A DNA stretch of 41,989 nucleotides from an uncultured Alphaproteobacteria bacterium. Its GTDB lineage: Bacteria > Pseudomonadota > Alphaproteobacteria > HIMB59 > GCA-002718135. Below, piece by piece: positions 38,175 through 41,399 of this stretch. The notes under the pieces are model-generated. The model saw only the letters and a list, made by a program, of their open reading frames with translations, did no database searches and had not been told where the DNA came from. The stretch spans positions 1-41,989 of the forward strand of contig CACOIH010000013.1 of assembly GCA_902627245.1 (NCBI GenBank), in the 5' to 3' direction. Position numbers and translations under genes: made by a program. The number at the start of each line of letters is the position of its first letter. The first letter of the stretch is position 1.

Positions 38175-39332
38175 ATGCAACTTTCAAAAAGAATATTTCA
38201 ATTAGAAACTGAAACCGCCTTCGCAGTGCTAGCAAAAGCTAATGAATTGGCGTCAAAAGGAATGGATATTATTAATCTAGGAATTGGACAGCCTGATTTT
38301 CCAACTCCAAATAATATTCAAGAAGCTGCTATTAAAGCAATAAGAGATGGTAAACATGGATATACCCCGTCAAATGGAATTCCAGAATTAAGACAGGCTG
38401 TATCTGATAAAATTATGGATGATTACAAAATATCTATTGACCCTAAAAATATATTAATCACGCCTGGTGGAAAACCAACTATATTTATTTCGTGCTTGAT
38501 GTTTGGTGGAATTGGAAAGGAAATAATATACCCTGACCCTGGATTTCCAATTTATAGATCAATGATAAAATTTAGTGGAGCAACTCCAAAGGCATTATAT
38601 TTAGACGAAAAAGATAATTTTGAAATAAATTTTGAAAAATTAAAAAAATTAATAACACCAAATACTAGTTTGATAATCATTAATAACCCAAATAATCCTA
38701 CAGGCTCATTCATGAACCAAAATAAAATAAATGAGTTAGTTGATATTTTAATTAAATATCCAAAATTAAATATTCTAAGTGATGAGATTTATAGCAAAAT
38801 TATATTTGATAATTTTAAAATGCCTTCATTATTAAAACATACAAATTTACATAACAGACTAATTGTTTTAGATGGTTGGAGTAAAACATATTGTATGACA
38901 GGATGGCGACTTGGTTGGAGCGTGTGGCCAACCGATTACATTGAATATGCAAATAAGATGTGTGTCAATAATCATTCCTGTCCTACTTCAATTTCCCAGT
39001 ATGCTGGACTTGAAGCATTAAAAGGTTCACAAGATGAACTTGAAAAAATCGTAAGAGAATTTCAAACTAGAAAAGATTTTGTTTACACTCAATTAAATAA
39101 AATTGATTCAATTTCATGCTTTAATCCAGGGGGTGCTTTTTATGCATTTCCAAATATCTCAAGAACTGGATTAAATGGTAAAGAATTTTCAGATCTTGCC
39201 TTAGAGAAAAAAGGGGTTGCTCTAGTACCAGGTACAAGTTTTGGAGAAAAAGCTGAAAGTTACGTAAGAATTAGTTATGCAAATTCTATAGAAAAAATTT
39301 CAGAAGCTATTAAAAGGATATCAACATTATGA
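38175..39332 (+). CDS. Class I/II pyridoxal-phosphate aminotransferase
   Basis: This fold-type I aminotransferase of the aspartate/aromatic/alanine group has 385 residues. The PLP-binding Lys is K237 in DGWSKTYCMTGWRLGW. NPNNPTG (171-177) binds the cofactor, SDEIY (202-206) supplies the Asp and Tyr that contact PLP, and the substrate-carboxylate Arg is probably in VRISYANS near the C-terminus. The N-terminus INLGIGQPDFPTP is typical. The exact amino donor and acceptor cannot be read from sequence. Its 4-bp ATGA overlap with glnB, ahead of glnA, suggests a role in glutamate-linked nitrogen transfer (inference). No ribosome binding site precedes the ATG. Confidence 0.9.
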   Translation: MQLSKRIFQLETETAFAVLAKANELASKGMDIINLGIGQPDFPTPNNIQEAAIKAIRDGKHGYTPSNGIPELRQAVSDKIMDDYKISIDPKNILITPGGKPTIFISCLMFGGIGKEIIYPDPGFPIYRSMIKFSGATPKALYLDEKDNFEINFEKLKKLITPNTSLIIINNPNNPTGSFMNQNKINELVDILIKYPKLNILSDEIYSKIIFDNFKMPSLLKHTNLHNRLIVLDGWSKTYCMTGWRLGWSVWPTDYIEYANKMCVNNHSCPTSISQYAGLEALKGSQDELEKIVREFQTRKDFVYTQLNKIDSISCFNPGGAFYAFPNISRTGLNGKEFSDLALEKKGVALVPGTSFGEKAESYVRISYANSIEKISEAIKRISTL

Positions 39333-39670
39333 AAAAAATTGAAGCAATAATTAAACCTTTCAAGTTATCAAATGTAAAAGATGCACTCCACGAACTAGGA
39401 ATATCAGGAATGACAGTTATAGATGTGAAGGGTTTTGGCAGACAAAGAGGATCAACTGGCGGAATGGAAACAAATGATAGCTACGACGATGAGTTTTTAG
39501 CCAAAATGAAACTTGAAGTCATAGTTGAGGATAGTCAAGTTGATGAAGTAATAAATGGAATCAAATCATCAGCTTATTCTGGGAAAATAGGTGATGGTAA
39601 GATTTTTGTATCAAACATAGAGCAAGTAATCAGAATAAGAACAGGTGAAAAAGACAGTGAGGCTGTCTAA
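39329..39670 (+). CDS. glnB: PII nitrogen regulatory protein with altered T-loop
   Basis: PII proteins sense ATP/ADP and 2-oxoglutarate and control nitrogen enzymes and transporters by binding them through the T-loop. The 113 residues are a full PII: MKKIEAIIKPFKL at the start, KGFGRQ with the 2-oxoglutarate Gln (Q39), K59 equivalent to K58 of E. coli, and the C-terminal signature GKIGDGKIFV (85-94) with IRIRTGE. The T-loop (about 40-56) is unusual. The uridylylation motif YRGAEY is absent and the loop reads GSTGGMETNDSYDDEF, one residue longer, with a Tyr (Y52) at roughly the Y51 position. It could be an unmodified PII. GlnK is an alternative name; no amtB is adjacent here. Confidence 0.93.
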   Translation: MKKIEAIIKPFKLSNVKDALHELGISGMTVIDVKGFGRQRGSTGGMETNDSYDDEFLAKMKLEVIVEDSQVDEVINGIKSSAYSGKIGDGKIFVSNIEQVIRIRTGEKDSEAV

Positions 39671-39676
39671 TTTTTC

Positions 39677-39704
39677 TTTACTTTTAATAAAAAGTTTGTA
39701 TTTA
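39677..39704 (+). promoter_or_regulatory. Candidate glnA promoter between glnB and the riboswitches
   Basis: TTTACT (39677-39682) and TATTTA (39699-39704) are 16 bp apart. The predicted start near 39711 falls exactly where the first aptamer begins. Each hexamer is a poor match to the sigma-70 consensus, so this rests mainly on the position. Confidence 0.3.
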
Positions 39705-39711
39705 AGCCATA

Positions 39712-39762
39712 ATCGTTCAACTCAATTGAGTCGGAAGTAAGCATTTTGCTGAAGGAACGCAT
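39712..39762 (+). ncRNA. Glutamine riboswitch (glnA RNA motif), copy 1
   Basis: This matches the glutamine-binding glnA RNA aptamer. The closing helix CGTTC (39714-39718) pairs with GAACG (39755-39759). P2 is ACTC/GAGT (39720-39723 with 39728-39731), followed by the conserved junction CGGAAGTA (39732-39739). P3 is AGCA/TGCT (39740-39743 with 39747-39750), then GAAG before the closing strand. The conserved unpaired letters are exactly those of the known motif. It is in the glnB-glnA gap and oriented to control glnA. The motif is best known from cyanobacteria and marine metagenomes. Confidence 0.9.
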
Positions 39763-39775
39763 GCAAAAGTTATAA

Positions 39776-39832
39776 ATCGTTCAATCTATTTAGATATAGA
39801 TCGGAAGTAAGCTCCAAGCTGAAGGAACGCAG
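39776..39832 (+). ncRNA. Glutamine riboswitch (glnA RNA motif), copy 2
   Basis: Second aptamer, 64 nt after the first. The closing helix CGTTC/GAACG is at 39778-39782 and 39825-39829. P2 is longer, ATCTAT/ATAGAT (39784-39789 with 39796-39801). The junction CGGAAGTA is identical (39802-39809), P3 is AGCT/AGCT (39810-39813 with 39817-39820) and GAAG follows. P2 differs from copy 1 but remains fully paired, and in P3 the A-T pair of copy 1 is a T-A pair here. These compensatory changes support the fold. Tandem aptamers usually sharpen the response to ligand. Confidence 0.9.
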
Positions 39833-39872
39833 ATCCAAAAGATTTCATAACTAGAGCATGAAATAAATTAAA

Positions 39873-39900
39873 TGAATACAATAAGTGTATTCATTTTATT
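39873..39900 (+). terminator. Terminator-like hairpin, probable riboswitch expression platform
   Basis: TGAATACA (39873-39880) and TGTATTCA (39886-39893) form a perfect 8-bp stem (10 bp counting flanking A-T pairs) with loop ATAAG, followed by TTTTATT. It lies between the second glutamine aptamer and the glnA ribosome site at 39908, the position expected for a regulated terminator. The stem is low in GC and no clear antiterminator is visible, so the mechanism is an inference. Confidence 0.6.
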
Positions 39901-39916
39901 AACGTGTGAGGTAATT

Positions 39917-41350
39917 ATGAAATATAACTGTAAAACTCCAAAGGAGCTTATTAAAAAAGTTAAAAATGAAAATATCAAAATGGTTGATCTTAGATTTACC
40001 GATTTGCCAGGATCAACTCATCATATTTCAATACCAATTAAGTATTTAACTGAAGATTTATTTACTGACGGTGTTGGGTTTGATGGATCGTCGGTAAGAG
40101 GCTTTCAATCTATTGAAAATAGTGACATGGCTATGGTTCCAGATGTTACAACTGGATATATTGATCCTTTCTACTCAGAAAAGACTATTGCATTTACTTG
40201 TGATGTAGTAGATCCCATTACATATGATAGCTATGAAAGAGACCCAAGATTCATAGCTAAAAAAGCAGAGAAGTATTTAAAATCTTCTAAAATGGGTGAC
40301 GTTGCATATTTTGGACCCGAAGCTGAATTTTTTGTATTTAATGATGTTAAATATGACTCGGGATCTAATTTTGCTTTTCATGAAGTAGATTCAATTGAGG
40401 GTGCCTGGAATACTGGTAGAGATGAAAACCCTAATTTAGGACACAAACCTAGACATAAAGGTGGATATTTTCCTTTACCACCCTCGGACAGTTTACAAGA
40501 CGTCAGAACTGAGATGGTATTAACAATGGAAGAAATAGGTATTAATGTTGAAGCTTCCCACCATGAAGTTGCAACAGGTGGTCAATGCGAAATTGATTTA
40601 GAATTTTCACCTCTTTTATCAATGGCTGATGATCTATTAAGATACAAATACGTTGTAAAAAATGTTGCTAAGCAACACGGTATGACAGCAACTTTTATGC
40701 CAAAACCTCTTTTTGAGGATAATGGTTCTGGTATGCATGTACATTCTAGTATCTGGAAAAATAAAAAAACTTTAATGTATAAAAAAGGAAATTATGCCGA
40801 TTTAAGTGATTTCGCGCTCTATTATATTGGAGGAATTTTAAAACATGCTCCTTCACTTTTGGCATTTTGTGCACCAACTACTAATTCTTACAAAAGATTA
40901 GTCCCTGGTTTTGAAGCACCTGTAAATATTGCTTATTCTCAAGCGAATAGAACAGCTTCTGTTAGAATACCAAATAATTATACTGCCAGTCCAAAAGCAA
41001 AAAGAGTTGAGTTTAGATGTCCGGACCCATCTGCAAACCCATATCTCGCTTTTTCGGCAATATTAATGGCAGGTTTAGATGGGGTTAAAAATAAAATTAA
41101 GCCAGGAAAGCCGACTGATATAAATATTTACGAAGCTCCTGATAATGTTCTTGCTAAAATACCATCAACACCTGGATCTTTAGCAGAAGCGTTAATAGCA
41201 TTGGAGAAAGATCATAAATACTTGATGCAGGGTAATGTCTTTACAAAAGACAACATTGAAACTTATATATCTTATAAGAAAGAAAATGAGGTTAGCCCCA
41301 TGGATTTAAGACCCCATCCTCATGAATTTGATCTTTATTACGACGTATAA
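39917..41350 (+). CDS. glnA: Glutamine synthetase type I
   Basis: GlnA makes glutamine from glutamate, ammonia and ATP; it is the main ammonium-assimilating enzyme. The 477 residues are a full GSI-beta type subunit: VDLRFTD, GFDGSSVRGF, FGPEAEFFVF with active-site Glu, the NPNLGHKPRHKGGYFP region, VEASHHEVATGGQCEI, GSGMHVHSS, NRTASVRIP and PHPHEFDLYYDV. The adenylylation-site Tyr is kept in NIYEAP, though the usual DLPPEE context is changed. The frame is open 15 codons upstream to an ATG at 39872, but that lies in the leader hairpin. The ATG at 39917 has GAGG five bases before it and gives the normal N-terminus. Tandem glutamine riboswitches precede it and a terminator follows. Confidence 0.97.
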   Translation: MKYNCKTPKELIKKVKNENIKMVDLRFTDLPGSTHHISIPIKYLTEDLFTDGVGFDGSSVRGFQSIENSDMAMVPDVTTGYIDPFYSEKTIAFTCDVVDPITYDSYERDPRFIAKKAEKYLKSSKMGDVAYFGPEAEFFVFNDVKYDSGSNFAFHEVDSIEGAWNTGRDENPNLGHKPRHKGGYFPLPPSDSLQDVRTEMVLTMEEIGINVEASHHEVATGGQCEIDLEFSPLLSMADDLLRYKYVVKNVAKQHGMTATFMPKPLFEDNGSGMHVHSSIWKNKKTLMYKKGNYADLSDFALYYIGGILKHAPSLLAFCAPTTNSYKRLVPGFEAPVNIAYSQANRTASVRIPNNYTASPKAKRVEFRCPDPSANPYLAFSAILMAGLDGVKNKIKPGKPTDINIYEAPDNVLAKIPSTPGSLAEALIALEKDHKYLMQGNVFTKDNIETYISYKKENEVSPMDLRPHPHEFDLYYDV

Positions 41351-41367
41351 TAATTAATAACTTTTTT

Positions 41368-41399
41368 AAAACCGCCTTAGGGCGGTTTTCTATTTTTTT
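41368..41399 (+). terminator. Rho-independent terminator after glnA
   Basis: A 9-bp stem (AAAACCGCC region at 41368-41376 with 41381-41389) with loop TTAG is followed by C, TA and a run of seven T. It begins 18 nt after the glnA stop and separates glnA from parE. Confidence 0.92.

Follow-up and report, generated by a model that had tools for sequence, protein, structure and literature searches.

A tandem glutamine riboswitch before glnA in a marine alphaproteobacterial family, with a candidate shared expression platform and a predicted OFF sign

Two glutamine aptamers stand in tandem in front of glnA in the analyzed window, a stretch of 41,989 nucleotides with 28.5% G+C that forms contig 13 of a 1.19 Mb alphaproteobacterial genome (62% complete). 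The reading favored here, with moderate confidence, is a dual-aptamer glutamine riboswitch with one shared expression platform that would shut off glnA translation when glutamine is plentiful. We infer the sign of the switch, its coupling through a linchpin base pair, the joint use of both aptamers, the binding of glutamine by these RNAs, and the direct control of glnA by glutamine in cis. The arrangement bears on the question of how nitrogen is sensed in streamlined marine bacteria without the textbook PII cascade.

In a cmscan search of the whole window, the Rfam glutamine model RF01739 matched aptamer 1 (39712–39763, plus strand) with 62.6 bits (E 1.2e-11) and aptamer 2 (39776–39833, plus strand) with 60.0 bits (E 6.3e-11). 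Both matches cover model positions 1–53 of 53 and lie far above the gathering score of 35 bits, which confirms, at the level of sequence, a pair of glutamine riboswitch aptamers of the RF01739 class; glutamine would be the expected ligand of such tandem RNAs. The two copies start 64 nt apart, with 12 nt between their Rfam boundaries and 18 nt between their P1 stems, and CGTTC/GAACG, CGGAAGTA, and GAAG are present in both. The original prediction had named two glnA RNA aptamers with this spacing and these common letters, and was right in both respects. The conserved letters of the class are present: J2/3 CGGAAGUA, GAAG, and P1 CGUUC/GAACG followed by C. P1 is formed by 39714–39718 with 39755–39759 in aptamer 1 and by 39778–39782 with 39825–39829 in aptamer 2. 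By position, the C after GAACG would be C60 of PMC11477058 section 7, which would place the linchpin position of aptamer 1 at 39760. The P2 stems differ between the copies (ACTC/GAGT and ATCTAT/ATAGAT) and keep their pairing, as had been claimed for P2 and P3 alike. In P3 the stem is AGC/GCT in both copies, and the difference is confined to the fourth pair (A-T vs T-A) and the loop.

The aptamers are preceded by a PII gene of the glnB type (39329–39670, plus strand; PF00543, E 6.5e-34), whose T-loop is without the RGAEY uridylylation motif. They are followed by glnA (39917–41350, plus strand), a type I glutamine synthetase with 648 bits for TIGR00653 against a cut-off of 429 and an adenylylation-site motif changed to INIYEAP. 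The tandem therefore occupies the leader of a gene of nitrogen metabolism and lies beside a PII gene, where the original prediction had placed it. The glnA start at 39917 appears better placed than the first in-frame ATG at 39872, because the Shine-Dalgarno GAGG (39908–39911, plus strand) precedes ATGAAATATAAC and the ATG (39917–39919) is conserved across the aligned glnA leaders of relatives. A terminator-like hairpin with a T-run was found by consensus scan at the end of the PII gene (39652–39668, plus strand) and recurs in all 16 upstream regions printed, out of 34 glnA-type leaders; this conservation is weak evidence, as the hairpin overlaps coding sequence. Promoter-like boxes, TTTACT ... 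TATTTA, would lie just 5′ of aptamer 1 (39677–39704, plus strand). The TTTACT-like hexamer is kept in the glnA leader alignment, and a loose two-box pattern occurs in 22 of the 34 glnA-type leaders. Together, the hairpin and the boxes suggest that the riboswitch probably heads its own RNA, made separately from the PII transcript. The consensus scan placed another terminator-like hairpin 3′ of glnA (41368–41389, plus strand).

The proposed output of the tandem is a helix, termed P0, between the linker that joins the aptamers and an element behind the second. The conserved linker CATGCAAAAGTTATAAAT (39760–39777, plus strand) would provide the 5′ strand (39760–39764 and 39768–39773), and the conserved 3′ element ATTTCATAACTAGAGCATG (39842–39860, plus strand) the other (39847–39852 and 39856–39860). 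Among 104 unique tandem leaders, 34 precede glnA (one assigned by eye), 33 amtB, and 37 an ATP-grasp gene, with target genes assigned by sequence motifs and Pfam run on representatives only. In most of these leaders the linker after aptamer 1 reads CATGC-A(2-4)-GTTAT, and in nearly all of them the element after aptamer 2 reads ATARCTA-N(1-2)-GCATG, so that CATGC is complementary to GCATG and AGTTAT to ATAACT or ATAGCT. Every one of the 102 leaders tallied keeps five outer and at least five inner pairs. The other two, L027 and L034, fall outside the tally, as the search pattern requires 26 bases 5′ of GCATG, and they are drawn paired in the duplex set. Pairs were counted on per-leader duplexes; the MAFFT alignment offsets the linkers of glnA and amtB leaders by one base.

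Linker and element paired with a median RNAduplex energy of -10.9 kcal/mol in glnA leaders, -11.4 kcal/mol in amtB leaders, and -10.4 kcal/mol in ATP-grasp leaders, against -5.5 to -6.3 kcal/mol for shuffles. The median z-scores versus dinucleotide shuffles were, in the same order, -3.3, -3.1, and -3.0, and for 57 of 85 unique leaders no more than 2 of 200 shuffles paired as strongly. The element was absent in 41 of 42 single-aptamer leaders; the remaining one, L149, is a tandem whose second copy contains an N.

The same element has a second possible partner in the glnA start, through 39842–39850 with 39915–39923. In the window, ATTTCATAA of the element complements TTATGAAAT of the start, with -12.5 kcal/mol over a longer stretch. 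In a set of 72 leaders, with duplicates and short ones removed, medians for pairing of the element with its own start were -10.4 (glnA), -9.3 (amtB), and -5.7 kcal/mol (ATP-grasp). Against shuffled starts, the median z was a modest -2.1 for glnA and -1.7 for amtB, and -0.1, hence no signal, for the annotated ATP-grasp start. This pairing is not gene-specific: the amtB element reaches -9.35 with glnA starts versus -9.3 with its own, and for the ATP-grasp element amtB starts (-9.8) are better partners than its own start (-5.7). P0 and the element-start pairing use the same element bases.

At low glutamine, the linker would pair with the 3′ element to form P0 around aptamer 2, and the glnA Shine-Dalgarno and start would be left free. 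Bound glutamine stabilizes P1 via the linchpin pair G23–C60 (PMC11477058 section 7). Upon binding, this pair would take up the C that follows P1 of aptamer 1, the base with which P0 begins; P0 would be weakened, and the element would pair with the glnA start instead.

A helix of at least five pairs starting at the C60 position was found in 26 of 36 single-aptamer leaders, one of which (L015) is a tandem cut by a contig end, and in 13 of the 36 it fell below 5% versus shuffles. In cyanobacterial and SAR86 leaders such as L054, L086, L145, L148, and L092, this helix encloses the Shine-Dalgarno, and DUF4278 was confirmed by Pfam for L148. The structure paper of Ren (2015) is said to report that a short helix below P1 melts. 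In cyanobacterial DUF4278-type leaders, the helix from the base after P1 appears to be the output, as proposed here for the tandem. If binding melts a C60-start helix that encloses the Shine-Dalgarno, the activation known from cyanobacterial glutamine riboswitches (PMC6316151 section 12) is to be expected. In the window tandem the helix that begins at C60 of aptamer 1 is P0; its melting should set the anti-start element free and so repress glnA. The cyanobacterial gifB (IF17) riboswitch shares the aptamer class, but there a single aptamer is followed by a helix that holds the Shine-Dalgarno and glutamine activates, whereas the helix in the window would hold an anti-start element. One aptamer class would then perhaps be wired with opposite signs.

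The bound state was modeled by withholding C60 from P0, which can only weaken P0 and so partly builds in the sign. Under this rule P0 fell in 24 of 34 glnA and 33 of 33 amtB leaders and rose in none, while element-start pairing rose in 24 and 15 of them, respectively. Mean openness of the glnA start dropped from 0.33 to 0.03, with no change in 10 of the 34 glnA leaders. In the 33 amtB leaders openness was not lost (Shine-Dalgarno 0.43 to 0.41, start 0.54 to 0.53). The window's own leader did not switch in the equilibrium model: the start was covered with and without the bound state, and P0 reached 0.06 pairs. This is perhaps due to a local A+T-rich hairpin between the element and the ribosome binding site (39870–39896, plus strand), and the switch would thus have to work during transcription. 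Binding to aptamer 2 had almost no effect in the C60 model, so cooperativity draws no support from folding.

The same architecture could also act with the opposite sign, glutamine stabilizing the P1 stems and P0 and freeing the start, so that glnA would be switched ON as in cyanobacterial gifB. We regard this as unlikely, if the most serious of the alternatives. It would agree with the characterized glutamine riboswitches, which activate expression (PMC6316151 section 12), and with an earlier model without the C60 rule, in which P0 gained over 0.5 pair in 21 of 25 glnA leaders once aptamer 1 was forced to fold, many of these leaders having their start freed. The sign given by that forced-fold model is, however, ambiguous; the base with which P0 begins should be drawn into the linchpin, and P0 falls when this is modeled. 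Activation by glutamine would also be biologically odd, since plentiful glutamine should lower glnA and amtB. Mainly on this gene logic, OFF was judged appreciably likelier than ON.

P0 itself could be incidental, with the aptamers acting as plain glutamine sensors and the linker and element serving as a protein or sRNA site or in mRNA stability; we consider this improbable. The helix is nearly invariant in its outer five pairs, with no two-sided compensatory change among the 102 leaders tallied, so covariation cannot prove the pairing, and the outer helix taken alone was not rarer than in shuffles (0 of 81 leaders at 5%). The element is also equally conserved before ATP-grasp genes, where it pairs poorly with the annotated start. 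Against an incidental helix, the linker variants L060, L178, and L179 keep the pairing through a shift of a one-base bulge. The inner loop, moreover, changes in step on both strands between glnA and most amtB leaders drawn: 3x3 in glnA leaders and 2x2 in amtB leaders except L080, with 1x2 or 2x2 in ATP-grasp leaders. The case for P0 is thus one of conservation, complementarity, and matched loop length, and not of covariation.

The two copies could further be complete riboswitches in series, each working for itself, as in the 2022 tandem survey (PMC9481103), which files 157 doublets and 4 triplets of glutamine aptamers as pseudo-cooperative and assigns a separate platform to every aptamer. For the window this has a low probability. 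Its tandem resembles those doublets in standing before one gene, but the 12–18 nt between the copies (12 nt between Rfam ends) contain no terminator-like site, ribosome binding site, or start, judged by sequence, and hence no second platform. The linker measures 6–18 nt in 123 of 128 unique tandems of the fetched loci, and it complements the element behind copy 2; linkers of 6–9, 24, or 62–63 nt were seen in other tandems. With one linker-element helix and one start region behind two aptamers, the pair does not resemble two switches that work independently, and a platform for each aptamer was not found in the window sequence. Both may perhaps feed one expression platform in the manner of the tandem glycine riboswitch, which likewise has two like aptamers and one downstream platform (compared in PMC9481103). 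The glycine aptamer is unrelated, however, and P0 of the window would surround aptamer 2. The window would be a candidate further case of two like aptamers on one platform, beside glycine and guanidine-II in the same source. In L045:7120-7285 and L106:7341-7503, the linker of 62–63 nt carries an extra hairpin, and CATGC and GCATG are kept.

A covariance-model search found RF01739 in 36 of 37 genomes of the window's genus, and most copies among the matches listed for the genus lie in adjacent pairs. Of the 100 genomes drawn from the window's family, 97 carried RF01739 (the exceptions are G015, G449, and G458), and tandem glnA leaders recur among relatives, in line with the survey of such leaders that the original prediction had suggested. 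None of the 24 genomes of the sister family in the same order carried it. The order would be HIMB59 (AEGEAN-169), described with two families in PMC10734472, to which the genome sizes and G+C contents correspond; the window's family would be GCA-002718135. Across the class, 6 of 385 genomes drawn had the model, two from the window's own genus and four from one other family, f10. A pattern scan gave, among the matches listed, at least one record each titled SAR86, SAR116, Pelagibacterales, and others with such aptamers. The alphaproteobacterial host that had been predicted holds by the kinship table and by named relatives. A chance or decayed motif without function has a negligible probability and is already refuted at the sequence level by the bit scores, by the 97 of 100 family genomes, and by the eight paired aptamers of the genome described below. 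Carriage of the tandem form by phages was considered and rejected, as its exact pattern had 0 matches in viral_contigs; glutamine riboswitches are reported from marine phages, including a Pelagibacter phage, in PMC9004378.

The regulon is seen in the near-complete genome G220 (96% complete), whose eight aptamers form four pairs. Of these, one lies before glnA and one before an ATP-grasp/alpha-E/transglutaminase operon; the other two lie before ammonium transporters, at a distance of about 2 kb from each other. The window's incomplete genome has the glnA pair and one weak single copy (L003:1501-1563 on contig 4 of G000; 39.9 bits) before a divergent ammonium transporter. This transporter lies back to back with a gene that by eye resembles a second glutamine-synthetase relative. 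The operon (L215:3435-6874 in G220) encodes a circularly permuted ATP-grasp protein (PF14403), an alpha-E protein (PF04168), and a transglutaminase-like protein (PF01841). Tandem or single glutamine riboswitches precede operons of this type, with 40 loci in the similarity cluster (cluster 0), and they tie an operon of unknown product to glutamine. In L005, L006, L033, and L050, a short open frame of about 17–25 codons was seen by eye between the element and the ATP-grasp start, and CCATAG of the element complements the CTATGG start of this frame in some ATP-grasp leaders. The switch in these leaders may act on the short frame.

GlnD and GlnE, which together with PII modification would otherwise signal glutamine, are missing from the window's family, where the RNA would take over this role. 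GlnE (PF03710) was found in 0 of 37 genomes of the window's genus and 22 of 24 of the sister family, and GlnD (TIGR01693) in 0 of 37 and 24 of 24, respectively. Twelve more genomes of the family, five other genera included, had neither, which brings both to 0 of 49; these genomes are 55–96% complete, on the whole too complete to hide both genes in all 49. The RGAEY motif of the PII T-loop occurred in 15 of 15 sister-family proteins and in none of the 17 that came from loci with the riboswitch or from the window's family, in an alignment of 32 chosen from 62 extracted, in which five of the 17 (L036, L060, L074, L079, L123) come from named contigs of untyped family. An NLYDLPPEE-type glutamine synthetase site was present in 9 of 53 rows, all from the sister family (two from one genome), and in none of the other 44, some of which are truncated. 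A canonical proteobacterial GlnD-PII-GlnE cascade was therefore not found in the window's family, with both enzymes at 0 of 49 and both motifs absent. The NtrC model put none of the genomes above its cut-off, but it did so for just one of the control genomes, so that the result carries no weight for an absence of NtrC.

Between the two families, the presence of GlnD and GlnE mirrors the absence of the riboswitch, a pattern that amounts to one evolutionary split and not to many independent events. The family without GlnD and GlnE bears as many as eight glutamine aptamers, spread over four leaders; in the sister family that keeps the proteins none were found. In the riboswitch-bearing family f10, GlnD was found in 3 of 4 genomes and GlnE in 0 of 4. 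G449 (93% complete) had no detectable GlnD, GlnE, PII, or riboswitch, so the riboswitch is not indispensable, which counts against a simple swap. Cyanobacteria are likewise without known glutamine-sensing enzymes and use glutamine riboswitches (PMC6316151 section 12). For SAR11, glnB without glnD is described, and its role called unclear, in PMC10030771.

The widest reading of these results is that an ocean lineage swapped the GlnD sensor, with GlnE and PII modification, for an integrated two-aptamer RNA regulon. A shared helix on the linchpin base of aptamer 1 would couple both aptamers to one start and invert the usual ON to OFF, the targets being glnA, two ammonium transporters, and the ATP-grasp/alpha-E/transglutaminase operon. 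This is offered as a tentative proposal, plausible and yet rather less than probable. The leaders are short enough for synthesis and testing.

The glnA gene itself probably did not arrive with the riboswitch. In a GlnA tree of 29 rows, the window's family grouped with the riboswitch-free sister family and one other alphaproteobacterium (96/93 support), so both families probably share glnA by descent; a joint gain of glnA and riboswitch from cyanobacteria was rejected on this grouping. The best solved-structure match of the window's GlnA was 3ng0, which we take to be cyanobacterial. The single cyanobacterial GlnA row stands beside the group. Its branch is long and the tree is midpoint-rooted, so there may have been an older exchange of glnA with cyanobacteria.

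The riboswitch class, its tandem cases, and its marine nitrogen-gene targets were already described in 2010. Weinberg 2010 (PMC2864571) lists PII, glutamine synthetase, glutamate synthase, and ammonium transporters as targets, some of them with tandem motifs, and agrees with the expectation that the motif is known chiefly from cyanobacteria and marine metagenomes. A 2018 review restricts glutamine riboswitches to cyanobacteria, environmental sequences aside (PMC6316151 section 12). In the open-license PMC papers searched, no characterized alphaproteobacterial case came up, in line with the original prediction, and neither the linker-element helix nor the GlnD/GlnE pattern was found described. 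The mirrored occurrence of riboswitch and GlnD/GlnE, the linker-element helix, and the predicted OFF sign go further than the earlier reports. The helix, the other members of the regulon, and the lost GlnD and GlnE were not part of the original prediction. The window tandem agrees with the Glutamine-I riboswitch (RF01739) in the full model and conserved letters of both aptamers and in its nitrogen-gene context, and differs in a linker, shared by the two aptamers, that is able to pair with the element, and in being predicted OFF and not ON.

Further leader types were seen among the fetched loci. Three glutamine aptamers in a row occur in L049 (Pseudomonadota), L059 (a SAR86 record), and L126. 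Six leaders (L041, L043, L103, L113, L114, L143) precede gltB- or gltD-like genes by similarity cluster, and those with titles seen are gammaproteobacterial. They have a pair of mutually exclusive hairpins 3′ of the aptamer, in some of them CACCAAACT/AGTTTGGTG versus AGTTTGGTGA/TCATCAAACT. Single riboswitches were found in L092, L098, L102, L105, L130, L137, L144, and L151, at least four of them on SAR86 records. In these eight leaders the Shine-Dalgarno of a gene for a small protein lies within a downstream hairpin. The protein, 71 aa long in L105, matches DUF4177 just under the cut-off and possibly represents an ON-switched nitrogen gene of unknown function.
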